Part shown: one piece after another, positions 5,752-52,529 of the stretch
Layout of the letters: each line of letters starts with the position of its first letter
Numbering within the stretch: position 1 is the stretch's first letter
Assembly (NCBI RefSeq): GCF_036711975.1
Contig: NC_091966.1
Span: 28,403,501-28,467,500 of the forward strand
Direction of reading: 5' to 3'
DNA from: Onthophagus taurus
Lineage: Eukaryota; Arthropoda; Insecta; Coleoptera; Scarabaeidae
Length of the DNA: 64,000 nt
Notes under the pieces: model-generated
Databases searched by the model: none
Told to the model about the DNA's origin: nothing
Seen by the model: the letters and a program-made list of their open reading frames with translations, nothing else
Program-made: the position numbers and the translations under genes

Positions 5752-8239
5752 ATGACTAAGTAAGTACTATAACTCTAATTCGTCAACTGCTAAACTCATT
5801 CATCGAAACGGCACACAAACGCTTCTTTTCGGAAGGTACAGACAAATTTAACTTTCGTAATCGAAAATTATATTAAGTATATTACTTTTTTTTATATTTT
5901 TCAAATTTCACTTACATTTTAATTAGCTTGTTGTTTGTCTCTGATTGTTGAAGTTAATAATTACTTCTTGGGGAGTGAGCGGTTTTGGTTTATAAGATTT
6001 TTGTTTTACTATTTATTTTGTGTGAAATTTTGTACGTATGTAGTAGTAATGGTGATTGGATGTATTTTGTTATAATTCTACTTAATTACAGTTTTATTTT
6101 TCATTTTGAAACCATGTACATTTATGTTATCGTTTTGAAATTAATCTTCAATAAGAACGAAGTTAAATAAAACGAAATTTCGTATATGTACATGGAGTTC
6201 TTGGTTTAAAAAAGATAAACCGAGTGTTGTTGTGATTATATTCTTCTAAGTCTTTCATAAGATTATTGGCATATGACCGGAGCTGTCGAAGTGCTGTACC
6301 GCAACGCGTTGCGCTGCAAGTGCTGAAGAGCTGCGGAATATGAGGAGGATTAAGGGTACAATATTTTTCGTTTTAAGTTATAACATATTCTATTTTATCA
6401 TTTATTCGCCGATATTATTACGTTTATGTTAAACGAATATTACAACTTTTAAAAATAGGATTTCGATACGAATTATCGCGATTTGCATTTCCCATTTTTT
6501 CAAGTTCTTTTATTATTTTTTTTTTATTTTGCCAACATTCATTTTAACTTCTAAGCTTTGCACATAATATATTTTTATGAGAATAAGCCAAAACTTTTTT
6601 TCCTTTTAATTTTGGTTAATTTTCTTTAAAATAGCCGTTAATAAATAATTATAATTCCGGTTTTAAAATTTGCAAATAGGCAGATAGGAATTTATTAACC
6701 AAAATCACATTTATCTTAGAATTTTGCTTCCAATTTCTAATTTAAATTTATTGCAGCTATAAAAGTGAAAAAAATGACGTTCCTGTTACCCTGGCAAATG
6801 GATCTACAGTACCTTTGGTGGAAGCACCGGGAAAAAGCGATTTGGAATTAGGAGAATACAATCCTTTTGATCATCGAAAATTAGAACATCCTACATCGTA
6901 AGAAATAACATTTACAACATTATTTTCAAAATACATATTAATTTGGTTGCTTTTTTAGCGATTTGGATACATTAATTCACCTTTTAAAAGGTAGTTTAGG
7001 AAGTGGAATTCTCGCAATGCCTGTTGCTTTTGCAAATGCAGGTTTAGCATTTGGTTTATTTGCAACATTCACAATTGGATTTATTTGCACTTATTGTGTC
7101 CATATCTTAGTGAGAAGCGCACATGAATTATGTAAAAGAACACGAGTTCCATCGCTAGGTTTTGCCGAAGTTGCTGAAGCGGCATTCTTAGCTGGTCCAC
7201 AAAGTTTAAATAAGTGGTCGAGATTTGCAAAAGCGATGATAAATCTATTCTTAGTGATAGATCTTTTGGGATGTTGCTGTGTATACATTGTATTTGTATC
7301 AAAAAATATCAAACAAGTAGTTGATCATCATAGTAGTTCTGATATTGATTTGAGATTGTACATGGCTGTTTTATTACCATTGTTGATCCCAATAAATTTG
7401 ATAAGAAATCTAAAATATCTCGCTCCGTTTTCGATGGTTGCAAATATTTTGGTAGCAACAGGAATGGGGATTACATTTTATTACATATTCATTGATTTAC
7501 CAGAAATCTCTACAAGACCAACAATCGTTTCGTTTGATAAATGGCCAATGTTCTTTGGAACTGCGATATTTGCTTTGGAAGGAATCGGCGTTGTTATGCC
7601 TTTGGAAAATAACATGAAAACACCAACTCATTTTATTGGATGTCCTGGAGTTTTAAATACTGGAATGTTTTTCGTTGTTTTATTATATGCCTCTGTGGGA
7701 TTTTTCGGGTTCCTAAAATATGGTGAATTTACCGAACCAAGTATTACATTAAATTTACCACAAGACGAAATGTAAGTTATCAAACATATTTAAAAAAAAA
7801 TAAATGTTTTAATTAATTTATGTTTTTTAGTTTGGCTCAATGCGTAAAGATAATGATTGCAGTTGCAATTTTCTTCACATACAGTCTCCAATTTTATGTG
7901 CCAATGGAAATTATAATGAAAAATTTAAAACAACGTTTTGGAATGAGATCAACGTTAGGAGAATATCTGATTCGTAGTGTTATTGTAATTGGAACTGTTG
8001 GAGTTGCGATAGCTGTACCAAATCTTGGAGGATTTATTAGTCTCGTTGGAGCTGTTTGTTTATCAACACTTGGTTTAATATTTCCTGCGGTAATTGATTT
8101 AGTAACATTCTATGAAGATCCTGGTTTGGGAAAATATAATTGGCGCTTATGGAAGAACACATTTTTAATTGTATTTGGACTAATTGGTTTTATAACCGGT
8201 AGCTATGTTAGTTTGGGTGAAATTTTTAAAGGGGATTAA
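5752..8239 (+). CDS. Proton-coupled amino-acid transporter (SLC36/PAT, pathetic-like)
   Basis: Four coding exons join in frame with GT-AG borders: 5752-5759 (exon begins at 5695 after an acceptor), 6757-6897, 6959-7771 and 7831-8239. They give 456 residues, normal for this family. Residues 61-71 (GSLGSGILAMP) form the substrate-site motif in the first membrane helix of amino-acid/auxin permeases. About eleven hydrophobic segments follow, as expected for PAT proteins. Family members carry small amino acids with protons across plasma or endolysosomal membranes, and insect relatives link amino-acid supply to TOR-dependent growth. The acidic N-terminus (residues 4-49) is cytoplasmic and poorly conserved. 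The start ATG at 5752 sits close to the end of its exon. The same frame is open back to the acceptor at 5695, so an extra upstream coding exon is possible. Substrate preference cannot be read from sequence. Confidence 0.93.
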
Positions 8240-11029: not shown

Positions 11030-12822
11030 AATATAATAATAATAATAATAATAACTTTTTTATCCCAACAGAAATTTGTTTTCCAAAAAGAGAGATAATA
11101 TTATAAACAACATAATTAAGCCTATGAACGTACATTAATTGACATAATAAGAAGTAAATATATACAAACAAAAAGAAAAAGAAAGAAACCATATTCAATG
11201 AAAAATGAAAAATCAAATAACAACAATTTAACAAACTGCTAAGTTAAACATCGAAGAATGATACACATTCGGTCGTATTAGCAGCTCGCATTAATTTGTT
11301 GAATGGGGAGTTTAGTCCAATATTTGTGTGACCGCGATTGGTAGTAAAAACATTAAAGTCACGAGCACCAAACCTCGGAACTTTTATATTCAATTGCGGC
11401 AAAACACCCGATGCAACCACTACACCCGACATCACATCCCGAACAAATCTTGCTGACATACACTTCCTTCTGTCTTCAAGGCTCTGGAGTCCATAACGAT
11501 GTGAGAGATATGGATAGTTCAATTCCCCTCGAGGCGGATAATGACCAAAGTCCAGGAAATGCATGAATCTAACAAATTTACGTTGTACCCTCTCGATGGT
11601 GATGATGTACCTTAAATAAGATGGTAAGAACAATACAGCAATATTCAAGTTTGCTTTTTACGAGTGTAAAGTAGAGTTTTATTATTGTGTTTATATGAGC
11701 AAATTCCAAACTATTTCTCGTTATAAATCCAAGTGTTCTGAGGGCGTTCGTCGACGTCTTGTCAACATGTACATTGAAAGACAAACCAGTGTCGAACCAT
11801 ACACCGAGATCCCTCACCACAGAAATGCGCGATAGGCAGTCAGTCCCAAGTTCATAATCAAAATCGATGGTGTTACGTTTCTGGCTATATGTCATTACCT
11901 GACATTTGGAAGTATTCAGAATCAATCTATTAGTAGTACACCACGAATAGAGTTTATTTAAGTCCAACTGAAGTGAAATGCAATCCTGTTCACTACCAAT
12001 AGTAGTAAACAACTTCAGATCATCTGCGTACAATAGGGCATTCGTGCTAAAGCTCACAAAAATATTGAACAGTAGAGGGCCAAGTATGGATCCTTGAGGT
12101 ACGCCACTAGTAACGCTTATTTTTCTCAATTTAATACCAGCCAACTCGACGTATTGTCTTCGATTTGACACATAGGATGACAGAAGCCGTATAAGAGAAC
12201 AATCACACCCAAACTTCTCCAACTTTTCCGTCAACAAGAAGAGGTCTAAACAATCGAAGGCCCGTGAGAAATCCGTGTATATGACATCCACCTGTCCACG
12301 GCAATCTAGTGCCCTAGATACGTATTCGGTAAAACTCAACAGGTTAGTGGCTGTGGATCTACCTTTGCAGAAACCATGTTGATGTTCAGACATTCGTGCT
12401 TTGGTGTAGAATTCCATCTTGTATGCTACGATTTGTTCAAACAGCTACGCGAAGTTATTTATAATAGCTATTGGCCGATAGTTCATCACACAGCACCTAT
12501 CACCTTTTTTGAAAACAGGATAAATTCTGCTCAATTTCCAGGTTTCCGGAAATTCAGAGTTCCTTACAATTAGATTGAAAATATGTTGCAGTGGTCGCAG
12601 AAATGCAGGTGCACAGTCTTTAACTATAAATGCAGGAATGCCATCTGGCCCGGTTGTATTTTTTGCCTTAAATCTATTGAAGGATTCCACCATTTCGCCA
12701 TAGCTAATTTCAGAGATACCGAAAGAAACCCCAGTCATAACAGGATTGATATGGTGACTATTGGAGGCAGCGAATGAGGTACGACTATACATACTTTCGA
12801 AATGGTCAGCAAATAAATTCAC
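11030..12822 (-). mobile_element. LINE reverse transcriptase with microsatellite tail (pseudogene)
   Basis: The RT domain is read on the minus strand. It begins with the finger region (FKAKNTTGPDGIPAFIVKD) and continues with YRPIAIINN, DFSRAFDCLD, GVPQGSILGPLLFNIF and the catalytic YADDLKLF, then thumb and C-terminal sequence to the stop near 11244. Defects are an in-frame TAG at 12442-12444, a small deletion before YADD, and a frameshift near 11610-11650. No endonuclease lies upstream, so the copy is 5'-truncated, which is usual for LINEs. The 3' end at about 11037-11053 is an (ATT)n microsatellite instead of poly(A), as in some I- and CR1-like elements. The upstream end abuts an inverted copy of the 9905-10345 repeat. 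Confidence 0.85.
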
Positions 12823-12949
12823 TATAGTATGTAAATAGTTATGGTTTTACCGTTCCATTTCAGAACACTTGGCGAGTTCAAAATATATTCTTTTGTAATG
12901 TTAATACAGTGGAACAACATTTTTCAATTCAAGATGGCGTTTACGCCTC

Positions 12950-15221: not shown

Positions 15222-15420
15222 TTTAGATGTTATTTTATTTATTTATATTTAATACCAATTTGATTTCACCTTTAATTTTTTAAAGTCATTTTTAACTACA
15301 TACATACATACTTAATTTTGTAGTCAACAAAACTCTCGAGTCATTAAGATAGCATACTATCGAGTACGCGCAGTGACCAAGTCGATAATTTGATAATAAT
15401 CGTACTTCTAATATAAAGAA
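15222..15420 (+). promoter_or_regulatory. 5' flank shared by GPx genes 1 and 3
   Basis: The 200 bases before the first peroxidase ATG are strongly conserved before the third (22917-23100), including 'cgcgcagtgaccaagtcgat' about 50 bases from the start. The duplication therefore carried the presumed promoter and 5' UTR. 'tataaag' sits only about 10 bases before the ATG and is too close to act as a TATA box. No transcription-factor site is claimed. Confidence 0.45.
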
Positions 15421-16017
15421 ATGTTATTTTACGGCTTACAGTTTTTCAACTTTGCCACTGTAGCCCTACGGACGTTTTCAACGGAAGCTATTCAAAAAAT
15501 GGCAGATACCGTAACAAATCCACAAAATCCTAAAGAAGCAAAATCCATTTACGAGTTTAACGCATTGGACATTAACGGACAAGCAGTTTCGTTCGAAAAA
15601 TATCGCGGACACGTTTGTATTATCGTTAATGTTGCGTCTCAATGTGGATTCACCAAAAATAATTACGCAGAACTTGTCGAACTTGATGAATTATATGGCG
15701 AAAGCAAAGGCTTGAAAATATTGGGATTTCCATGCAATCAATTTGGGGGGCAAGAACCTGGCGATTCCGCCGAAATATGCAGCTTTGTTTCGAAGAAAAA
15801 CGTCAAATTTGATATGTATGGAAAGATTGATGTTAATGGGGGTAATACACATCCCTTATGGGTTTATTTAAAATATAAACAAGGTGGTACTTTGGGGGAT
15901 TTCATCAAGTGGAATTTTACCAAGTTTATTATTGACAAAAATGGGCAACCGGTTGAAAGACATGGACCAAGTACTAATCCAAAGGATTTGGTGAAATCAC
16001 TTGAGAAATATTGGTAG
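15421..16017 (+). CDS. PHGPx: Glutathione peroxidase 1 (Cys-type, GPx4/PHGPx family, mitochondrial-like)
   Basis: One uninterrupted frame of 198 codons. The fold is thioredoxin-like. The catalytic tetrad reads Cys75 (in NVASQCGF), Gln111 (in NQFGGQEPG), Trp164 and Asn165 (in KWNFTKF). Cys replaces the selenocysteine of vertebrate GPX4, as in most insects. Cys120 (in SAEIC) is the likely resolving Cys, so thioredoxin is the probable reductant. Such enzymes reduce phospholipid and other hydroperoxides. Residues 1-22 are hydrophobic and basic with RTFS near a plausible cleavage site, suggesting mitochondrial import. Initiation at Met27 would give a cytosolic form. The CDS has no intron. Gene 2 follows 0.7 kb downstream on the same strand and a near-copy lies at 23.1 kb. 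Confidence 0.95.
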   Translation: MLFYGLQFFNFATVALRTFSTEAIQKMADTVTNPQNPKEAKSIYEFNALDINGQAVSFEKYRGHVCIIVNVASQCGFTKNNYAELVELDELYGESKGLKILGFPCNQFGGQEPGDSAEICSFVSKKNVKFDMYGKIDVNGGNTHPLWVYLKYKQGGTLGDFIKWNFTKFIIDKNGQPVERHGPSTNPKDLVKSLEKYW

Positions 16018-16525: not shown

Positions 16526-16733
16526 ATGCATTTATTGTATTGTCCAATGATGGACTGAGCATAGACACCCAATATTACACAAGTTTAAAAACTGTTGCAG
16601 CATCATTCGTACACTATAAATAGCTACATTTCCTTCTAAATCTAAATCATTTTACATCTCTCACTAAACAAATTCTCTGCGACATATTCAGTTGATATTT
16701 GTAATTTATTTAACTCAAAAATATAAAACAACA

Positions 16734-17324
16734 ATGGGACTACAACGTTTTTTAGTTAAGTTAACGGGTGTAGTGTTTAGTGCTTATTCTTTTAGTACAG
16801 TAGCAGCAGCAAGTTCGTTAAATAATCCGAAAGATCCAACGAAGGCTAATTCGATTTACGATTTTCAAGCCTATGGTATTTCTGGTGAAGTGGTCTCGTT
16901 AAGTAAATACAAAGGTCATGTTTGTATTATCGTAAACGTCGCTTCCGAATGTGGCTTGACGAAAGACAACTACGCTCAATTGGTTGAGATTTACGATGAA
17001 TATTCGAAATTGAAAGGTCTAAAAATTCTGGCGTTTCCCTGTAATCAATTTGGAGGACAAGAACCTGGAGATGATGCTCAAGTTTGTACATTCGCGTCGA
17101 GGTACAACGTAAAATTTGATATGTTTTCGAAAATTGATGTTAATGGAGGAAATGCTCATCCACTTTGGGTTTATTTGAAACATAAACAAGGTGGAACTTT
17201 TGGCGATTTTATTAAATGGAATTTTACTAAGTTTATCATTGATAAAAATGGTCAACCCGTTGAAAGACATGATCCTACTACTAAACCTAAAGATTTAATT
17301 AAGTCATTAGAAAAATATTGGTAA
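16734..17324 (+). CDS. Glutathione peroxidase 2 (Cys-type, predicted secretory/ER form)
   Basis: A single 196-codon frame. I chose ATG 16734 (context acaacaATGGG); the frame is open upstream but has no other ATG. The tetrad is Cys73 (in NVASECGL), Gln109, Trp162 and Asn163, with resolving-type Cys118 (in DAQVC). The N-terminus differs from gene 1: a short basic start, a hydrophobic run (LTGVVFSAYSF) and an AAAS cleavage-like site near residue 26. That is typical of a signal peptide, so an ER or extracellular location is likely. The core is roughly three-quarters identical to gene 1 and ends in the same LEKYW. It also lacks introns. Gln to Glu immediately before the catalytic Cys is a difference from genes 1 and 3. 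Confidence 0.94.
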   Translation: MGLQRFLVKLTGVVFSAYSFSTVAAASSLNNPKDPTKANSIYDFQAYGISGEVVSLSKYKGHVCIIVNVASECGLTKDNYAQLVEIYDEYSKLKGLKILAFPCNQFGGQEPGDDAQVCTFASRYNVKFDMFSKIDVNGGNAHPLWVYLKHKQGGTFGDFIKWNFTKFIIDKNGQPVERHDPTTKPKDLIKSLEKYW

Positions 17325-22916: not shown

Positions 22917-23100
22917 TAAATGTTATTTTATTTATTTATTTTTAATACTAATTTAATTTCACCTGTAATTTTTTAAAATCATTTTTAACTATGTACTTAA
23001 TTTTGTAGTCAATAAAACTCTCGTGTCATTAAAATAGCATATTATTGAGCACGCGCAGTGACCAAGTCGATAATAATCGTACCTACTTCTATATAAAGAA
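22917..23100 (+). promoter_or_regulatory. Duplicated 5' flank of GPx gene 3
   Basis: It closely matches 15222-15420 ahead of gene 1, including 'acgcgcagtgaccaagtcga' and the 'tatataaagaa' just before the ATG. Gene 3 therefore probably inherited gene 1's regulation. Confidence 0.45.
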
Positions 23101-23697
23101 ATGTTATTTTACGACTTACAGTTTTTCAACTTTGCCACTGTAGCCCTACGGACGTTCTCAACGGAAACTATTCAAAAAATGGCAGATACCGTAACGAATC
23201 CTCAAAATCCTAAAGATGCAAAATCCATTTACGAGTTTAACGCATTGGACATTAATGGGCAAGCAATTTCGTTCGAAAAATATCGCGGACACGTTTGTAT
23301 TATTGTTAATGTTGCGTCTCAATGTGGATTCGCTAAAAATAATTACCCAGAACTTGTCGAACTCGATGAATTATATGGCGAAAGTAAAGGCTTGAAAATA
23401 TTGGGATTTCCATGCAATCAATTTGCGGGACAAGAACCTGGCGATTCCGCCGAAATATGCAGCTTCATTTCGAAGAAAAACGTCAAATTTGATATGTATG
23501 GAAAGATTGATGTTAATGGGGGTAATGCACATCCATTATGGGTTTATTTAAAATATAAACAAGGTGGTACTTTGGGGGATTTCATCAAGTGGAATTTTAC
23601 CAAGTTTATTATTGATAAAAATGGGCAACCGGTTGAAAGACATGGACCAAATACTAATCCGACGGATTTGGTGAAATCACTTGAAAAATATTGGTAG
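23101..23697 (+). CDS. PHGPx: Glutathione peroxidase 3, recent duplicate of GPx 1
   Basis: The frame has 198 codons and differs from gene 1 at 11 residues (about 94% identity): G5D, A23T, E39D, V56I, T78A, A83P, G109A, V123I, T143A, S184N and K188T. The tetrad Cys75, Gln111, Trp164, Asn165 and the resolving Cys120 are intact, as is the mitochondrial-like N-terminus with internal Met27. Two changes fall next to the active site: T78A just after the catalytic Cys loop, and G109A in the usually invariant NQFGGQEPG loop. The enzyme is probably active but could differ kinetically. The 5' flank is that of gene 1 and the 3' flank from about 23733 is that of gene 2, so the gene looks recombinant. No introns. 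Confidence 0.94.
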   Translation: MLFYDLQFFNFATVALRTFSTETIQKMADTVTNPQNPKDAKSIYEFNALDINGQAISFEKYRGHVCIIVNVASQCGFAKNNYPELVELDELYGESKGLKILGFPCNQFAGQEPGDSAEICSFISKKNVKFDMYGKIDVNGGNAHPLWVYLKYKQGGTLGDFIKWNFTKFIIDKNGQPVERHGPNTNPTDLVKSLEKYW

Positions 23698-33181: not shown

Positions 33182-36100
33182 TCAACATATGAATACAAAT
33201 ATTAATCCAATAAAAAATATTAATATTCCAAAACCAATTAGAACCCATGTAACGACATCAACCATAACTAATTGATCGAAATATCTAACACGTAATTCTC
33301 TTACGTAATTATATGGTAATTCCATTTCCTAAAAGAAGAGTTATTTTTATTCATTCTCAGGTTTAATAAAATGTCTTATTTGTATCCTTACTTCTTCAAC
33401 CCAAAATATAGGCATAACCGCTCTAGGAAGATTTCTAGTTGCTTCAATATAAACTTTTCGGTCTTCCTTCGATTCATCATTTCCCCCATTATCTTCTCCA
33501 TCATCTTCTCCATCATTTTCTCCATTAATTTCACGTCCAACAATATCATAGTTGCTATCCACAGTAAAACTAATGGGTCTTAAAACCATGTTAAATTGAG
33601 TTCTCCTAACAGCTTTTAACACAGTACCAGTATTCTAGAAAAACAAATAATAAAAATAAGTGTTTAATGTATAAAAAAACTGTTTCAATATAAACCGGTT
33701 CAAAAACAACATAAGATCCATGATCTTCTTTTTTTGGTTCTAATCCAATTACTGTTTGGGCAAATTCAGATTCCTCCGCGTTGAGAAAATGTGGATTCGA
33801 CATGATAAACATTGTATCTAAATATGAAAAAAATGTTTTTCTTTTGTATAATCGATAACATAACTTACTTAAGCAGGTGTATAAATCCATGAAACCATCT
33901 GGCCAGCACGTATCTTCCCCATTGATATCTCTGGTGTTTCTTGTGCAATAACATGATTGATTTCCGTCATTTGTGAAAGTATCTTCTTTTTGTTCATACC
34001 TATAACCGGGAATACCCTTATATTCTTCATTATCTTCGAATTTCATTGAAACAACTCTAGAATAAAACAAAAATAATGACACTATTCTTGAATCTCTTCT
34101 GTTAAAAGCAGAAGGTTTCAAATTAAGACAATGTTTCAGAAACGAAAGAGAATTTTTTTAGTCACTTTATTGACCTCATTAAAGAACAATATGAAATGGG
34201 GCATTGAAAATAACCTTGTCAATTATCTTAAAACTCTTCGATCTATTGAGTTATCATCGGTAGCAGAATTGATATGGTTTTTAAATGATTCCAACCAATA
34301 TCCAAGACGGATGACAACATTTTTAACAGCATCTGACCCAGTTAGAAACGATGCAGATACCAAGATCACATAGTAATACAAAAGAGAAGAATAACAAATT
34401 TATCTACAAAATCAAGAGAAGCCGACGTGAAGAATCATATCATGTTAATTATGCGCAGAAAGCTTTCTTGTCAAATTAGTAAAACGATGTTGTAAAATTC
34501 TGAACTTAAACCAAATTGGAGTTGGCAGAATTAGCATAGAAAAAGGCGTCCTAACAACATGTGTGTCTACAAACACTTAATAAACAACCATATCTGGTGG
34601 GTAATCTAAAAGTGAAACATAACAAAACTAAAATCAATAACTGAGCTTTTCATCAACAATGAAAATATATCCACATTGTTGTTTACTGCAGATGATTTAG
34701 AAATAACTCCAGTACCGCACTGAAGCAACCACACAAGAGATGAAAGAAGGTAGACATTTACAAATTTTAAACAATGAATATTAAGAGTAGCAAATTTTGT
34801 TAACTGAAAAACAAACTATTACCCTATTACGTTCCCTTATTCTTTACATGCTTTCTTATCAATATATCAGGAACATTTTTGAGTTGGCAATGGCGAAAAA
34901 ATGACACACTAATTTCTGTGTTCACGAATGCAGAAAAAGATTGGTGTACAGTATTTTTAGCACACATACCCAAACAACTTTTTGGTGATCTATCAAGTCC
35001 TACAATTGCATCAAGCAAAGGTTATAAGTACAGGTTACATTAAAGTTTTCGGTAATTGTGTGGGTAATACCCAGGCGTGATATAAAACGATATTTGAGGA
35101 GTTCCATACAACTTTTTGAATTGTTAATGTGAAATGTTGTACAGCTTCTTCAATGTTACTACTACTCTTGAGAGGAAGGCTCATTTTAATTTTTCTAAAT
35201 ATTACTTCTTAAACAAAAGCAAATATATTTTTAGTTTGTTAAAGTTGGTGGCTCAGTCAGAAGGTACGGTTTCATTGCTTCCTCTACTAATAGAGACTTG
35301 TACTGGAGAGAGAGACTGTATTATTGAGAGACTACCTGGGTTATTGAGGCTTACTTTGGTGTACGGTGCATAAATGGGGACATCCCATTACGGTAGTAGA
35401 ACGTATTCTTCAAATATTAATTGTCATAAGAATCCATATACATTAGACGTTATATAATAGATACTAGATGATGCTTATAAAAAAAACAAATATCAACTTG
35501 GCAATGCTTAATACTACTTTCGACACGCATAACAGTTTAATGTTTATTTATAATTAGCTTTTCACGATTATATAGTAAGAAGTCATTAATTTTCCTATTA
35601 TAAAACGTGACAATAATAATAACGTAATAATAAGGAATATTATACCAAATGTTATAATTAATTTCGGTTTATCTTCCTTTTAATAACTTACCTACATATA
35701 TCACTTCGAAATATATCAACTGTATCTTCTTTGGTAGCGTGTGGTGGGAAAATCAGAAAATCTCTTCCTCTAACTTCTTTACAAACTTGGCTATTTTCAC
35801 CGTCATTCCACATATTCAAGATATCATCATTCCGCCATTTTAACAGGTTTCCAACATCCTCTACGACATTCATACCAGCTTTAATTAAAAAGCTCTCTAC
35901 GCTGTTATTGTGCCTCTAATAAAAGTTATAAATAAAAGCTAATAGTTAAAAATAGGTATGTTAGTTTACATGTCTTAAGAACGCGAATGATAATCCATCT
36001 TCATCTCTATCAATAATTCTCATATAGTTATTACTCGCAACCATATCATTTAATTTTGAACAAACTGAATCTATTACATCTGGGATTGTTGTACCAGTGG

Positions 36101-37508
36101 TTGTTTCAATGGTTGATGTTCCATCGGTAGTTGTTTCCAAAGTGGTTGTTACATCTGTAGTTGTTGTCAATGTGGTTGTTTCATCCGTAGTTGTTTCATC
36201 GGTGGTTGTTTCTAAGGTTGTTGTTTCATCGGTAGTTGTTTCCAAAGTGGTTGTTACATCTGTAGTTGTTGTCAATGTGGTTGTTTCATCCGTAGTTGTT
36301 TCATCGGTGGTTGTTTCTAAGGTTGTTGTTTCATCGGTGGTTGTTTCTAAGGTTGTTGTTTCATCGGTAGTTGTTTCCAAAGTGGTTGTTACATCTGTAG
36401 TTGTTGTCAATGTGGTTGTTTCATCCGTAGTTGTTTCATCGGTGGTTGTTTCTAAGGTTGTTGTTTCATCGGTAGTTGTTTCCAAACTGGTTGTTACATC
36501 TGTAGTTGTTGTCAATGTGGTTGTTTCATCCGTAGTTGTTTCATCGGTGGTTGTTTCTAAGGTTGTTGTTTCATCGGTAGTTGTTTCCAAAGTGGTTGTT
36601 ACACCGGTAGTTGTTTCATCGGTGGTTGTTTCTAAGGTTGTTGTTTCATCAGTAGTTGTTTTCAAGGTGGTTGTATCATCGGTAATTGATTCCATGGGAG
36701 ATGTTCTACCGGGATTTATTTCACCGGTTCTTATTGCACCGTTAGGACAAAATTTAATTCCATCGAATAGTAATTCGTTTGCAGAAAATTCCTGAAACAA
36801 ATTCATACCTGGAAACGCTTCCATCCAATCGTAGTTAATAGTGTCCAAAAGATTTGGTGATGCTTCGACTAGTTTTTCTGTCATTTGAAAAAAATTCTAA
36901 AAAAATATTCAAATAACCCAAGTTTATAACAGAGGTTTTAAAATGTTTTTACCATAAGAGGTACATTTAATGTATAGATCATTTCATCTAACGATAAAGT
37001 ATTAGCTTTTTCATCAAATTCGAAAAAGGTATTTTTAAAATAAAGTAATGTATCCTTATCTTCGTCATATTCAACATTATCTCTATATCTACTTTGTCTA
37101 AAATACAGCAAAAACTTTATCAATTAATTCTTTTAAATTAAGTTAAATACCTATAAATAAACGGCCCTATTTGTTCGACTTCAATTCTTTGTATATCTTC
37201 AATTGCTGATACCCTTTTTAAAATGTCTGAATTCTTTATTGTAAAAAAATACACTTTAATAGTAATGGGAAACGGCATTTCTTTCCATCTTGTAAATTGA
37301 ACGGTGCCGTTTTCTAATCTAGCGTTCTGAAAAAAATTGTGTTGGGGCATTTCTTAGAATACATCAAGATTTATAATATTATTGTTACCTCATTGATTGT
37401 GCTTATAATAACATCTGGAAGAACAGCGAATCCTAGAACCGCACCAATAATTATACAAATTATACCAAAAAATGCTATAACAATAAGCACTAATTTACAA
37501 CAAGCCAT
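33182..37508 (-). CDS. CD36-family class B scavenger receptor with Thr-rich repeat insert
   Basis: Nine exons join in frame on the minus strand: 37389-37508, 37151-37326, 36953-37097, 35970-36896, 35692-35915, 33869-34056, 33696-33817, 33392-33634 and 33182-33328. They give 763 residues; relatives have about 490-550. Residues 5-30 are the N-terminal membrane helix and a second helix lies near the C-terminus (VDVVTWVLIGFGILIFFIGL). The CD36 ectodomain signatures are GPFIYR, FSANELLFDG, LSFAFLRH, RSDICR, the Cys-rich block CYCT...CWPDGFMDLYTC and SNPHFL. Two inserts are absent from the neighbouring genes: about 197 Thr-rich residues (about 218-414) in exon 4 and an acidic run (NGENDGEDDGEDNGGNDESK) in exon 8. 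An in-frame ATG three codons upstream (37515-37517) is an alternative start. Class B receptors bind lipids, lipoproteins or cell debris; the ligand here is unknown. Confidence 0.9.
34057..35691. other. Long intron of the first CD36 gene
   Basis: This 1.6-kb intron is much longer than the others in the gene (about 55-80 bases). It holds open-frame scraps on both strands (for example 34131-34373) that probably come from a decayed mobile element, but I cannot name it. No exon was recognised inside. Confidence 0.5.
36096..36686 (-). repeat. Coding minisatellite: Thr-rich tandem repeat
   Basis: The basic unit is 15/30 bp, encoding variants of TTLETTTDET on the minus strand. Units are arranged in longer blocks of about 120-150 bp that repeat at 36181, 36301/36361 and 36421 with almost no change. 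This points to recent expansion or homogenisation. All units stay in frame. The antisense open frame on the plus strand (Val/Ser-rich) is only a consequence of the repeat. Confidence 0.9.
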
Positions 37509-38159
37509 GTTTTTCATGTTTGTGCCATTGTGGTTTAAACGTTCGTTTTAAGCCGACATTTTATCAGTTTGCTGCAAAGCCTTACTTAATACCAGAAAGT
37601 TTAACAATAAATAAACATGTTTTCGATAATGATAACAATATCGGGATCGTGTAATAAAATGGAAACTTTTGTTACTTAGGATTTCTGAAAATTAGGTGTT
37701 ATATTAATTTTTTCAATTTATTTTTAGTGACTCTCTTAAAATAGAAAAACAATAAAAAAATTTGTGACTTGAGATGATAGTATCTAATATTACTTTAAAA
37801 TATTGAAATGAATATACATTTTAAAGAATGAAAATTAACTAAACTAATTACTAATGAATTGTTGAACCACAAGTCTGTTATAACGTTGGAAATAATGTTG
37901 CTTTTGTAACTAAAAACAAAATTTAAAAAAAAATATTACACCTTGAATAAACCTTAACTACCCATAAAAGTAAATGTAAGGAAGTTGCAACTACTTTTAG
38001 CCTTGGTCATTTGATTCAAGGTCATTGTTTCTTTGAAGTCTGCCCTTTCCTCGTTTCTTTTGTTCCTTGTAGTGATGGAACTTTTCTTTTATATTAGTCA
38101 ATGTAGGTATTCAGAAATGCCTTAAATACCTCAATAGACACTCAAATTCTCTTAAAATC
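37509..38159. other. Upstream region of the first CD36 gene
   Basis: It should contain the promoter and 5' UTR of the minus-strand gene. The bases just 5' of the ATG ('gtttaaacgttcgttttaag' on the plus strand) are also found before the related pseudogene at 48.04 kb, so some promoter-proximal sequence is shared. No specific site can be named. Confidence 0.4.
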
Positions 38160-40910: not shown

Positions 40911-42854
40911 TCAACAACATAATATCTTTAAAGCTATACCAAGTATAAATAGAGCAATACCACATCCAATCAATGCCCAAGTAATTATAGTAATGGTATT
41001 CAATTCTGATAAATATTTATCATGAATCTTGTCAATTAAATTCGATGGTAATTCCATGGTCTAAAATTAAAATGAAAAATTAAAACAGTTTTATGTATGT
41101 TTAAAACACTTATGTACTTCTTCAATCCACAATACAGGATAGATCGTAGATGGTAGTCGACTCGTTACAGTAACACCTCCAATGTTTCTTAAAACCATGT
41201 TGTATTGGAATCTTTTCACTATTTTTAATGGTGTTCCAGTACCCTATTTATTTAAAAAAAATAATTATGAAAAAAGTGAATATTTTTCAAAATTTACTGG
41301 TTCTATGATTGTATAGGAACCATGATAATCCTGATGTCCTTCTAATCCCAATACTGGATTTTGAACAATTGAAGCACCCAAAAAGTGAGGATACGAAAGT
41401 ACTACATGTGATCCTAAATTGAAAATATTTGGATTAGTTTAAAGATTGTTTTTTCATTGCGGTTATTATACGTGTACAAGTATAAAGATCTGTAAAACCG
41501 TTGTGCCAACATCGATTTGAACCATCAGGCAACCTTGTTTGACCAGTACAATAACAATCGTTATCGTTGTCGTTATTAAGGGTTGTTTCTTCAAATTCCC
41601 GCCTATGACTTGAAATACCTTCAAAGCCTACATTTTCGACATGTTCTAATGTAACTGTCCTTGAAGATTTAATAAAAATTATTTAAATAAATAATTTTAT
41701 TTCCATAGTTATGTGTTAAATGGTTTTTCTTACCTACAAATATCGCTATAAAATATTCTAAAATCATCATTTCTATTCACATTCGGTGGGAAAATTGTTG
41801 AATCGCGGCCATTAATTTCTCTGCATTGTCCGGTATTTCCCCAAACGTTATTTGGCAAATTAGGTTGTCCATTCCATGTCCTAATCAAACCAAGATCTCC
41901 AATGCTATCCATTCCAGCGGTTATTACATAAGTACCATCAAAAGTATTATCCCTCTGTGTAATTAAAACCTTAATTTATTATCGAATAAAAATTTATTTT
42001 AGTTACATGTCTTAAAAATGCAAATGATAAAGCTGTTGCTCCTTCCGGTTGAATATAATGCATATTTTCTATCTCATTTCTGGTCGGGCACAAATTAGGA
42101 GCTGCTGTTGGGTTTGTGCAAAATGTATACCCATCAAATAGAAACTCTCTAGCACTGAATATTCGAAATACATCTTCTGGGTTTCCAAACGCTGAGTTTA
42201 TTTCACTATTAATACCTGTCGGTAACCTATCTTCTATTGATTGCACTAAACTCTATAAATAAATGTAAGTGACTAATATATCGTAAAGCTGCGTGATTTT
42301 ATATACCACTAATGGAACGTTAAGTAATTTTAACCGATGTGTTTCAGGAAACTCTGACTCTTCTTCATCAAAATCAAATTTAAGATATTCTCTGTATGTT
42401 ATTGTATCATCATCGCGATTTTTCGCATCTACTGTTTTTTGTCTGGTCAATCTAAATTTGACAGCAAAATTAGATTAAGTATGTGCTTTCATTTAATGCT
42501 GTCAAATTAATGAAAAAACTTACTTATATACGAAAGGTCCTCGTTCAGCCACTAATATCCTATTGTCTGGCTGCAAATTATGTTCAAAAAAATATATTTT
42601 CGCTGTTTGATTAAAAGGCAAAATTTGCCATCTTTGAAATTGTTCACTACCATATTCTAATCTAACTCTCTAAAATTCGAAATTAATTGTTTCATAAATA
42701 TAAAATTTTTATTCGAACATCTTACTCGTTCTACTTCGTCTCTAATATTGTTAGGTAAAACAGCAAAACCTACAACTGCTCCGATAATAATTGCAGCTAC
42801 ACCAAGTCCAGCTACAATAAAAGCAAGAATCTTGCAAAGTATGCCACCACACAT
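40911..42854 (-). CDS. CD36-family class B scavenger receptor, second gene
   Basis: Nine minus-strand exons: 42726-42854, 42524-42669, 42307-42451, 42007-42252, 41734-41954, 41472-41659, 41298-41413, 41118-41243 and 40911-41060. The sum is 1467 nt (488 residues), normal for the family. The N-terminal helix is FIVAGLGVAAIIIGAVVGFA. The ectodomain has RWQILPFNQTAKIYFFE, GPFVYK, FSAREFLFDGYTFC, ALSFAFLRH, SDIC, the Cys block CYCTGQTR...CWHNGFTDLYTC and SYPHFL. A C-terminal helix (ITIITWALIGCGIALFILGI) ends in a short Cys-containing tail (LKILCC), possibly palmitoylated as in CD36. Exon lengths and phases match the third gene almost exactly, so the two arose by tandem duplication. Introns are about 50-80 nt. 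Ligand and tissue cannot be read. Confidence 0.93.
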
Positions 42855-43765: not shown

Positions 43766-45481
43766 GATTCACATAAGAACCGACACAGCAGGGACATGTA
43801 TAGGACAATAAATTAAGATGATTTAACGTAACTTATCTTTATACCAAGTTGTACTTCTGAGGAGTTATAGGCTTTCAAAGTTGGGTCTTAAATTTTTAAA
43901 ACATTGAATATCTTCGTAATACATTAAGCTAGAAAAACCAAATTTGGTATACGTTATGAGTGTACCGAGGGTATTAATTGGTAGCAAGTAGAGACCAATT
44001 GAGGCATTTCAAAGGGTTGATTAAGGGTGATGGTTCCCTTAATTTTGACAGATTTTTTTAACCTTTTGGCGGATTTAATACATTACTACTTCATTTCATG
44101 TGGAATTTAATTCTAAAACTTTTTTTACTCTTACTATTTTTTAAAAAACATTGTCGTTCTCATAAAAAACTCAAAAAACTAAAGACGCGTATCTTGTTAT
44201 TGCTACTTAAAATCATCGAAAATTTAGTAGTCGGCTATGAAATTGTACGTAATTGGAGGAATAAACTGTTTATTATGAGCTAAAAAGACATCATCCATAA
44301 ACAAATTTAGTTTAGGCATAATAATTTTTTAGTGATAAAGAGAAAATCCTCAAAATGTCAAAATTAAGTACTTGTGATTTTAAAATCGATCATAACTCAA
44401 GAATGAAAGGTGATGACGAAAAGTTTTTTAGGAATAAATTGTTTATTATGAACTAAAAAAACATCATCCATAAACAAATTTAGTTTAGGTATAATGATTT
44501 TCTAGTGATAAAGAAAAAATCATCAAAATGTTAAAATTGAGTACTTTTGGCATTAAAATAGATCATAATTCAAAAATTAAAGGTGATGGAGAAAAGTTTA
44601 TTTGAAATAAATTGTTTATTATGAACTAAAAGGACATAACTCATAAACAGATTTGGTTTAGTTATAATGATTTTCTAATGATAAAAAGAGAAAATCATCG
44701 AAATATCAAAATTGAGTACTTTTGATATTAAAATTGATCATAACTCAAGGATGAAAGGTGATGGAGAAAAGTTTTTTAGGAATAAGTTGTTTATTGTCAA
44801 CTAAGAAAACATCATCCATAAACAAATTTAGTTTAGATGTAATGATTTTCAGGTGATAAAGAGAAAATCCCCAAAATGTCAAAATTGGGGACTTTTGGTG
44901 TTAAAATCGATCATAACTTAAGAATGAAAGGTGATGGAGAAAAGATGGAGAAAACCTTGTCGTCAAATAACTTTATACCCTATTTGTCAAGTTTGACGTA
45001 CAATTTCATAGCCGACTACTAAATTTTCTCTTATTTTAAGCAACATTACGAAATACGTGTCTTTAGTTATTTAAGTTTTTTATGAAAACGACAAAGTTTT
45101 TTAAAAAATAATACGAGTAAGAAAAGTTTTAGAATTAAATTCCACATGAAATGTAGTAGTAATGTATTAAATCCGCCAAAAGGTTAAAAAAATTTGTCAA
45201 AATTTAGGGTGCCATCACCTTTAATCAACCCTATGAAATGCCTCAATTGAGTTCAATTTGCTACCAATTAATACCCTTGATACACTCATAACGTATACCA
45301 AATTTGATTTTTCTAGCTTAATGTATTACGAAGATATTGAACTTTTTAAAAATTTAAGAGCCAACTTTGAAGGCCTATAACTCCTGAGGTGTACAACTTA
45401 GTATAGAGGTAAGTTACGTTAAATCATCTTAATTTATTGTCCTCTACATGTCCCTGCTCTGTGTCGGTTCTTATGTGAATC
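43766..45481. mobile_element. Foldback element with 485-bp arms and inner tandem repeats
   Basis: The left arm 43766-44250 and right arm 44997-45481 are 485-bp inverted repeats (outer ends 'gattcacataagaaccgaca'). The interior, about 44258-44945, is four tandem copies of a 173-175 bp unit starting at 44258, 44431, 44604 and 44779 ('ggaataaattgtttattatg'). No transposase is encoded. The structure resembles foldback-type, non-autonomous DNA transposons. A clear target duplication was not found. Confidence 0.8.
44258..44945 (+). repeat. Four-copy tandem repeat, 173-bp unit
   Basis: Units begin at 44258, 44431, 44604 and 44779. Each contains 'cataaacaaatttagtttag'-like and 'gaatgaaaggtgatgg'-like blocks. 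Divergence between units is modest. The array fills the interior of the foldback element. Confidence 0.8.
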
Positions 45482-47619: not shown

Positions 47620-48036
47620 CTATAAATGATAAATAAGCGTTCCTATTTGTTTTTATAGCTATAATTTCAAATAATTTTATATGTGAATTAATACTATTCG
47701 ATTTAAATTAATTTTATTTATTTTGAAAATTTTAATCTATTTTCTAAATCATTACCTAAATCATCCACATTCTTTATTGTAAAATAAAACGTTTTAATAT
47801 TAATTGGAAACGATAATTTTTCATGTTGCACAGCGTATACTTAAAATTTTTGATCTAAAAACAAACGGACATAGTCTTAAATTATGTATTTTTATATTAT
47901 TTATTTCAATATTATTACCTTAGAATGTACTCAAAATAACATGTGGAAGAACAGTAAATCCTAGAAGTGCAACAAGGATAATACAAATTATACCTAATAT
48001 AATTATAACAGTAACCACCACATTACAACAAGCCAT
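47620..48036 (-). pseudogene. Truncated CD36-family pseudogene (relative of the first gene)
   Basis: Only the first two exons are recognisable. Exon 1 (47929-48036) encodes a membrane anchor very like that of the first gene (MACCNVVV, then GFTVLPHVILST), but a small deletion near its end creates a stop before the donor. Exon 2 (47620-47857) keeps FPINIKTFYFTIKNVDDL but has lost frame in its first half, and ends at a preserved donor. Exons 3-9 are missing. The sequence just upstream of the ATG also matches the first gene, so this is a decayed tandem copy, not a retrocopy. Confidence 0.8.
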
Positions 48037-48375
48037 GTTTTTCACGTTTCAGCCGTTGCGGTTTAAATGTTTGTTTTAAGCCTGTATGTTATCAGCTTTC
48101 TACAAATCCTTCCAAAATTCTAGAAAGTTTCATAGTAAGTAAATATGATTACGATAATAAAAAAACGATATCGACTTAACATTGTTGGTTTTGTTAAATT
48201 GAGGTAACTTAAAAATAAAATACATTTTTTCAATAATTTTAAGTATGTATTTATTTTAAATAAGGAAGAGATCCGCAGATTTTGGTAATAGTTACATATG
48301 TAGATTGGGTTGGATTTGATTTGGTTTTAGAGAAGATCTAATCACAACCTCTATTTATTTACGAAAGCATAACAA

Positions 48376-50563: not shown

Positions 50564-52529
50564 TTAACAACAACATAATAATTTTAAAAGTATACTAGCT
50601 ATAAATATTGCAATACCTCCACCAATCAATACCCATGTAATTATAGTAACGGTATTTAATTCTGCTAAGTACGTATCATGTATCTTGTCAATTAAATCCC
50701 AAGGTAATTCCATGGTCTGAAATGAATTGAAATTTTAATATTTGTTTTATTTATATCTAAAATACTTACTTCTTCAATCCACAATACAGGATAGATCGTA
50801 GGCTCCAGTCCAGTCATTACATTGACACGATCAATATTTCTTATAACCATGTTGTATTGGAATCTTTTTACTATTTTTAATGGTGTGCCAGTGCCCTATT
50901 TGTTCCACAAAAAATTATTATGAAAAAATTAAATGTTTGTCAAAACTTACGGCCTCTATAAGTGTATAAGAACCATGATCGTCCCAATTTGCGGTTAATC
51001 CTTGTACGGGATTTGGTAAATTTCTTACATCCAGGAAATGAGGATATGAAAGCACTACGTGTGATCCTAAAAAATAATATGGCTCAATCTTTTTGATCCT
51101 TTTTTTTCTTATCTTTAATACCTGTACAAGTGAAAAGATCTGTAAACCCGTTTTGCCAACATTGCTCAGAACCATCAGGCAAGTTGGTTCCTCTAGTACA
51201 ATAACAAGTGTTATCGTTGTCGTTGTTAAGAGTTGTTTCTTCAAATTCACGTCTTTGAGTTGATATACCTTCAAAATCTACATTTTCGACATGTTCTAAA
51301 GTTACCGTCCTTTAAGATTAAGTAAAAATTGTTTAAATAGACAATGATATTTACACAGTTTAATTGCTTTTTTTTTTCTTACCTACAAATGTCGCTATAA
51401 AATATTCTAAAGTTATCATTTCTATGTATATTCGGTGGAAATATGGTTGAATCGCGACCATTAATTTCTCTACATTGTCCGGTGTTTCCCCAAATATTAT
51501 TTGGTAAATTAGGCTGCCCATTCCATGTCCTGATCAAACCAAGATCTCTAATATCATCCATTCCAGCGGTTATTACATAAGTACCATCAAAAGCATTATG
51601 TCTCTGTGTAATTAAAATTTTAATTTATTACCGAATAAAAATTAATTTTATTTACATGTCTTAAAAATGCAAATGATAAAGCTGTTGCTCCTTGCGCTTC
51701 AATATAGTCCATATTATTTATGTCATCTCTGCTTGGGCATAAATTAGGAGCTGCTGTTGGGTTTGCACAAAATGTGTATCCTTGAAATAAAAAGTCTCTA
51801 ACACTGAATCTTCGAAACAAATTTTCTGGGTTTTCAAATGCTGAGTTTATTTCGTCGTTAATACCTTCTGGTAACCTGTTTTCTATTGATTGTACTAAAC
51901 TCTATAAATAAATTAAGTGATTAATAAAATATATTAAGTAAAAAATAAAATAAAATTTTGTGAGTTTACACACCACTAATGGAACATTAAGTAAATTTAA
52001 TTGTTCTGTATCAGGAAATGCTGATTCTGTTGCATCAAAATCAAATGTGAGGTGTTCTTGGTATGTTATGGTATCGTCGTCGGCATTTCTGTTATCTACT
52101 GTTTTTCGCCTGTTCATTCTGAATAACGTAAACAATGTGTGTTAATATTCAATTCTATACTGCCAGAAAGAAAGGAAAAGAAACTAAAAAAAAAAACTTA
52201 CTTATATACGAATGGTCCTCTTTGATTCACCGTCCTAAAGTTCGTTTCGGAACTAGGTTCGAAAAAATAAATTTTCGCTGTTTGATTGAAAGGCAAAACT
52301 TGCCACCTTTCAAATTGATCAGTACCATACTCTAATCTAACTCTCTAAACAAAACGAAATTAATTTACTGTAAATGAAAGTTTTTATTAAAATAACTTAC
52401 TCTCTCTACTTCATCTCTAATGTTATCAGGTAAAACAGCAAAACCTACAACTGCACCGATAATAATTGCAGCTATACCAACTCCAGCTATAATGAAAGCA
52501 ATAAACTTGCAAAGTATACCACAACACAT
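50564..52529 (-). CDS. CD36-family class B scavenger receptor, third gene
   Basis: Nine minus-strand exons: 52401-52529, 52202-52344, 51974-52118, 51656-51901, 51383-51603, 51122-51309, 50951-51066, 50770-50895 and 50564-50716. The sum is 1467 nt (488 residues). Architecture and exon phases match the second gene; exon 2 is one codon shorter and the last exon one codon longer. Conserved sites: N-terminal helix FIIAGVGIAAIIIGAVVGFA, RWQVLPFNQTAKIYFFE, GPFVYK, FSVRDFLFQGYTFC, ALSFAFLRH, SDIC, the Cys-rich block with QCWQ..TDLFTC-type ending, SYPHFL and a C-terminal helix ending in CCC. It is a tandem paralogue of the second gene. The two have diverged most in the stretch after KIYFFE and around exon 7. 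A role in lipid or ligand uptake is inferred from family only. Confidence 0.93.

Follow-up and report, generated by a model that had tools for sequence, protein, structure and literature searches.

Two questions are raised by this locus: where, within a CD36-family receptor gene of the beetle Onthophagus taurus, a long threonine-rich repeat has been accommodated, and what such a repeat could do there. The gene, referred to here as gene A, occupies positions 37517..33182 of the reverse strand in the window, the whole 64,000-nucleotide (nt) stretch of contig C1 that was analysed, and its two tandem neighbours are the paralogues B and C; all three were modelled from sequence alone. A preliminary description had interpreted the repeat as a mucin-like stalk added to the ectodomain of the receptor. 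The main correction that we bring to that description is that the insert, judged by the cysteines on either side of it, enlarges a cysteine-bracketed apical loop of the kind present in SNMP receptors.

Position of the threonine-rich array in gene A

Analysis of gene A yielded a model of nine exons joined by GT-AG introns, encoding a protein of 766 residues with 0 internal stops, and the number and phases of the exons are common to genes A, B and C. The array lies in exon 4, which is bordered by an acceptor AG (TTTTAG) and a donor GT (GTAAAC), is entered and left in phase 0 and is free of stops, in full agreement with the earlier account of a 927-nt exon in frame at both borders. The previously described location of the array, between the segments FSANELLFDG and LSFAFLRH, was likewise upheld, with its length revised from about 197 to 199 residues and that of the predicted protein from 763 to 766 amino acids (aa).

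Assignment to the CD36 family, also proposed earlier, was confirmed by a match to Pfam CD36 (PF01130) in three stretches, with 303.3 bits against a cut-off of 26.5 (E 3.1e-90), the corresponding values being 2.2e-96 for paralogue B and 2.3e-94 for paralogue C. At E 0.001, the relatives of known structure were exclusively CD36 and LIMP-2 chains (for A and B alike, eight distinct sequences). Hydrophobic runs, identified by eye in the translation, are found at both ends of protein A (residues ~8-33 and 741-766), and the ectodomain of ~710 residues, whose ends were also set by eye, contains the six conserved CD36 cysteines (504, 533, 569, 571, 584 and 595) with spacing equal to that in B and C. 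Gene A is apparently an intact, SNMP-type member of a tandem CD36 cluster.

The array falls between C200 and C429, the extra cysteine pair of the SNMP subfamily. The set of SNMP-type genes in which this region was compared numbers 13, comprising 11 genes of the C1 cluster, taken on the basis of their location, in which exon 4 could be read, and two genes on C11 (C11a and C11b), chosen by motif; a partial cluster member, X86, gave no exon 4 match and was left uncounted. The motif FxGxxFC...C together with the cysteine pair was present in all 11 of the cluster genes and in both C11 genes, and the pair was not found in the four other CD36 loci in which the equivalent segment was read (two on C2, one on C7 and one on C16). 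Gene A has 228 residues between the paired cysteines compared with 7-16 in the 12 other SNMP-type genes, a range that includes 9 in both B and C and 10-16 in eight other cluster genes. Thus B, C and the eight further C1 cluster genes that were read share the cysteine pair with A but lack the insert, and no threonine-rich insert was found in any of the 12 other SNMP-type genes with the loop read (B, C, the eight cluster genes and the two C11 genes), which extends the earlier observation that the neighbours have a 246-nt exon without it.

Comparison with Drosophila SNMP1 suggests where the array would lie in the folded protein. The distances between successive ectodomain cysteines are 229, 75, 29, 36, 2, 13 and 11 in A and 10, 71, 29, 36, 2, 13 and 11 in B and C, whereas those of Drosophila SNMP1, derived from published residue numbers, are 11, 67, 29, 36, 2, 9 and 11 (PMC4912623; this and the other publications are cited from excerpts). 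All eight ectodomain cysteines of A correspond to those of SNMP1, and of the last five spacings only the fourth differs (13 compared with 9); because of this correspondence we place the array in the SNMP1-type apical loop, a position consistent with the earlier proposal that the insert is near the ligand-binding apex. Like A, Drosophila SNMP1 has a CD36 domain, the six conserved cysteines and an extra pair around an apical loop after helix 6; this loop (V185-K194) is short, has several acidic residues and is associated with the SNMP1-specific cysteines 187 and 198 (PMC4912623). In contrast to A, the loop cysteines of SNMP1 are separated by 10 residues rather than 228, and no threonine-rich array is described in the excerpts of that paper. 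Since a conserved cysteine pair brackets the array, a closed loop describes it better than the stalk that had been envisaged.

Composition and growth of the array

The 199 residues of the array include 122 Thr (61%), 49 Asp/Glu, 1 Lys, 0 Pro and 0 cysteines, and its 39 pentads are distributed among 15 TTTDE, 10 TTTLE, 4 TTTLT, 4 TTTDV and six singletons, the decapeptide LETTTDETTT occurring 10 times in protein A. Pentapeptide-repeat and antifreeze-type folds were considered and dropped, given that Leu is present in only part of the pentads and cysteines are absent from the array. The term mucin, used in the preliminary description, is apt for the threonine-rich tandem repeats but not for the lack of proline (0/199) or the extent of the array, which accounts for 26% of the protein (199/766), whereas repeats make up at least one third of the length of a mucin in the scheme of Syed et al. 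2008 (PMC2515642). Because of these two departures, that scheme points to a mucin-related protein rather than a mucin. The Drosophila mucin-related (Mur) proteins resemble A in having proline-free Ser/Thr tandem repeats over less than one third of their length, but the Ser+Thr content of the whole of protein A, 23.2%, is below the 25% cut used for such proteins, and the repeat of A lies inside a CD36 domain (PMC2515642).

At the nucleotide level, the array received a score of 807 at period 105 (Tandem Repeats Finder). Shifting the array against itself by multiples of 15 nt gave high identity (0.79 at 30, 0.90 at 105 and 0.82 at 135), whereas the best of the shifts from 1 to 299 not divisible by 3 reached only 0.37. 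The longest exact internal match spans 149 nt at a distance of 135, and the higher-order periods are 105 and 135 nt. Because exact matches of this length coincide with high shift identity, an origin of the array by recent block duplication is supported, and these blocks lend weight to the active expansion that had been suggested before. No donor of the repeat was detected elsewhere in the genome (290.8 Mb; one genome was searched), since the 199-residue insert, used as a protein query, matched no locus but its own at E 1e-3 among the 150 candidates scored out of 468 found at first look, a scope in which other threonine-rich genes may be missed. No transposon origin of the insert was seen either, the pieces of the gene that recur in the genome belonging to intron 5, separate from the insert.

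Exact copies of up to 149 nt could in principle mislead an assembler, such that the array had been collapsed, expanded or misplaced. We consider such an artefact very improbable, as the array starts and ends in frame within one conserved exon, is matched by the protein search only at this position (within the candidates scored) and sits on a contig of 44.24 Mb.

The reading frame of the array also bears on whether its growth has been constrained. On the gene strand, the 585-nt pentad array has 0 stops in the gene frame compared with 16 and 17 in the other two frames; on the opposite strand, one frame is likewise open. Among the Thr codons of the pentads, five distinct third-site variants were counted compared with two first- or second-site variants, both of which lead to Ser (115 Thr and 2 Ser, n=117). 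Counted as distinct variants and not as copies, this gives a binomial P of 0.045 against an assumed one third, with seven variants being few, and the pattern may be taken as a weak sign that hydroxyl residues are kept.

These data can be set against the view that slippage and unequal exchange swelled a tolerant loop, so that the receptor works like its paralogues, with no particular function falling to the array, a view that we regard as a genuine possibility while leaning away from it. Such neutral growth would be in keeping with a loop whose length already varies (7-16 residues in 12 paralogues) and with exact blocks that attest to recent copying; exon 8 holds another acidic insert of low complexity, which raises the possibility that the gene tolerates inserts generally. 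Less easily accommodated are the unbroken register of all 39 pentads, in which neither a frameshift nor a stop occurs, and the mere two replacements, to Ser, at 117 Thr positions, although recent homogenisation could yield an equal pattern. Neutral growth is also at odds with the intolerance of the Drosophila SNMP1 loop, deletion of which abolished localisation and function, and in which charge reversal or Cys-to-Ser changes strongly lowered both localisation and the response to cis-vaccenyl acetate (PMC4912623, Gomez-Diaz et al. 2016).

A search of the genome for CD36 produced 87 exon-level matches and placed the SNMP-type cluster at ~C1:28.437 to 28.569 Mb. A tree was built from 18 partial proteins assembled from tblastn pieces of this genome's genes, with exon 4 left out; rows of fewer than 120 residues (C7, C16_1 and C1_12) were dropped, and four of the rows cover less than half of the alignment columns. 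In this tree, gene A groups with B and C (95/93) and lies 0.77 from their common fork, compared with 1.02 for B and 1.04 for C, indicating that gene A is not evolving faster than its sisters. Accordingly, the end branch of A was rejected as a sign of relaxed constraint, B and C being further from the same fork.

The tree also bears on whether gene A could be on its way to becoming a pseudogene, accumulating inserts under relaxed constraint. Three features could be read in this way: the two low-complexity inserts, the length of intron 5 (1635 nt, whereas its counterparts in B and C have 73-74 nt) and a decayed, incomplete copy of the gene lying elsewhere in the window (Table 1), in which no exon 4 match was found. 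Nevertheless, we think it most doubtful that the gene is dying, given 766 stop-free codons, GT-AG introns, the retention of eight cysteines and both hydrophobic ends, and the absence of faster change in the tree.

A possible role for the enlarged loop

We propose that the enlarged apical loop is a working, flexible and acidic brush, probably glycosylated, over the entrance of the lipid tunnel, a proposal for which we judge the balance to be even. In this model, tandem duplication of a 15-nt, five-codon unit would have enlarged the apical loop after helix 6 to a 199-residue acidic threonine-rich array, and the two cysteines would stay bonded, making the array a closed, flexible and negatively charged loop. 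Probably O-glycosylated and positioned over the distal entrance of the tunnel, the brush would keep off bulky or negatively charged carriers while admitting small hydrophobic ligands, and attachment of the receptor to an apical, glycan-rich matrix may be a further function. We favour gating or shielding as its role because the distal tip of CD36 adjoins the entrances of the lipid cavity and is a site of ligand binding (PMC5052687). Transcription, glycosylation and gating of receptor A, together with its disulfide and the tissue in which it would act, are inferred.

Several observations weigh against this proposal. The insert is known from a single gene in a single genome and may be selectively neutral, the array has no proline, unlike typical mucin repeats, and we infer the C200-C429 disulfide from the position of the two cysteines only. 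In addition, exon 4 contains a strong donor-like site at 36808 (score 9.8), and among the 111 in-frame, stop-free GT..AG pairs formed by its 22 GT and 26 AG sites, 33 would remove the whole array, some of them keeping both cysteines. Site scores were obtained with matrices built on the 24 introns that genes A, B and C have between them, each real site being left out when it was itself scored.

These sites raise the question of whether the array is removed as an exitron, leaving a short receptor in most transcripts. The highest total score was obtained for the donor at 36808 with the acceptor at 36080 (9.8 and -1.3), but this pair would lose C200. Use of the donor at 36724 with the same acceptor (5.1 and -1.3; 645 nt) would keep both cysteines and leave a paralogue-like loop of ~13 residues, and the donor at 36709 (2.7) paired with 36080 would retain both cysteines as well, and the scores of all three donors fall among those of the 24 genuine donors. 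However, a good acceptor is wanting, and removal of the array by splicing therefore appears unlikely: the acceptors at 36080 and 36071 score -1.3 and -1.5, under all 24 real sites (lowest left-out score -1.1), and the downstream acceptors at 36007 and 35974, although scoring 1.7 and 1.2 (exceeding 4 and 3 of the real acceptors, respectively), pair in frame only with poor donors, the best shown being -3.0, and with the loss of both cysteines. Moreover, 23 of the 24 introns used for the matrices measure 51-83 nt compared with the 600-800 nt needed here. No short alternative exon 4 for gene A was found in the window.

If the array is retained and the gene expressed, receptor A would carry a mucin-type element inside a CD36 fold. 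The loop of gene A is 14 to 33 times the length of that of its paralogues, two of which are adjacent and have equal exon structure, so that the locus offers a natural test of whether the role of the SNMP loop is to gate ligands, to target the protein or to bind partners. The Drosophila study found the apical loop to be important and, in the excerpts, did not distinguish its precise function (PMC4912623). A further and rather improbable extension of the brush model is that an SNMP loop required for ciliary targeting and signalling became a disulfide-closed, O-glycosylated acidic brush that selects ligands by excluding on size and charge at the tunnel mouth and is tuned by repeat number; the result would be a receptor of variable length that could differ from one individual to another.

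Comparison with published CD36 proteins showed both precedents and differences. Metazoan CD36 ectodomains are reported to measure 367-616 aa (PMC10715195, Boohar et al. 2023), a range exceeded by the ectodomain of A. Lineage-specific expansions of the CD36 apex, described for Aurelia, Dictyostelium LmpA, Phytophthora and Tetrahymena, are like the insert of A in adding sequence at the membrane-distal apex, but they involve helices 4-5 and were modelled as helices, in contrast to the low-complexity array of A in the loop after helix 6; additions near helix 7 are known in some lineages, such as the peronosporalean oomycetes (PMC10715195). SCAV-2 of Caenorhabditis elegans, a CD36-family receptor that is located at apical membranes and affects the apical matrix, provides a functional parallel only, with no mucin-like insert described in the excerpts (PMC12848578).

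Receptor A, known here from one genome, is an unusual variation on a known CD36/SNMP receptor, and no report of a threonine-rich or mucin-like insert in a CD36/SNMP protein was found among the open-access publications listed. A survey by Zhao et al. in 2020 reportedly covered 128 beetle SNMPs (cited in PMC7873011). The SNMP-type cluster itself is already of a known kind, because expanded SNMP sets are known in beetles, with up to 16 members in Onthophagus taurus (PMC7873011).

Features of gene A and its surroundings

The coordinates of gene A, its paralogues and the decayed copy are listed in Table 1.

Table 1. Coordinates in the window of gene A and related features.
Feature	Position	Strand	Description	Basis
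Gene A exon 1	37389..37517	-	Start codon, short cytoplasmic tail, first hydrophobic helix	Gene model; aligned with B and C
Gene A exon 2	37151..37326	-	CD36 domain	Gene model; tblastn against paralogues
Gene A exon 3	36953..37097	-	CD36 domain	Gene model
Gene A exon 4	35970..36896	-	927 nt; SNMP-type Cys loop and Thr-rich insert	Gene model
Gene A C200 codon	36747..36749	-	First loop-bracketing cysteine	Counted from exon start
Gene A Thr-rich acidic insert	36087..36683	-	Residues 222-420; 39 pentads, mostly TTT[D/L]E, in register	
Gene A C429 codon	36060..36062	-	Second loop-bracketing cysteine	Counted from exon start
Gene A exon 5	35692..35915	-	Conserved Cys 504 and 533	Gene model
Gene A exon 6	33869..34056	-	Conserved Cys 569, 571, 584 and 595	Gene model
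Gene A exon 7	33696..33817	-	CD36 domain	Gene model
Gene A exon 8	33392..33634	-	243 nt compared with 126 nt in B and C; second, acidic insert	
Gene A exon 9	33182..33328	-	Ectodomain end, second hydrophobic helix, stop	Gene model
Paralogue B	40911..42854	-	488 aa, 9 exons; exon 4 of 246 nt without insert	
Paralogue C	50564..52529	-	488 aa, 9 exons; exon 4 of 246 nt without insert	
Decayed partial copy of gene A	47757..48042	-	Restricted to exon 1 (39 residues at 67% identity) and part of exon 2	

The insert in exon 8 of gene A (~33574..33455) has 14 Asp/Glu in 40 residues and includes a 12-bp tandem repeat at 33475-33525. Pieces of intron 5 (34057-35691) recur at six other places in the genome with 71-81% identity. 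Elsewhere in the cluster, the genes G112 and H127 (C1 28.511-28.534 Mb; L013-L015) are nearly identical where compared, with branches of 0.003 and 0.028, which suggests recent duplication or conversion.

Other features of the window include four copies of a 173-bp unit at 44257-44944, part of a genome-dispersed satellite with at least 194 matches, the other copies being 89-96% identical among the matches listed. Three glutathione-peroxidase-like reading frames are present on the forward strand (15412-16017, 16668-17324 and 23077-23697; Pfam GSHPx, E 4.3e-37 to 6.2e-40), and by eye their usual peroxidatic position reads Cys. Amino acid transporter-like frames are also found on the forward strand within 6942-8239, of which 6942-7775 matched Pfam Aa_trans (E 8.9e-53) and 7817-8239 was assigned by position only. 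Finally, a reverse transcriptase fragment of a retroelement lies on the reverse strand at 11578-12846, with a Pfam RVT_1 match in 11578-12444 (E 1.2e-20).

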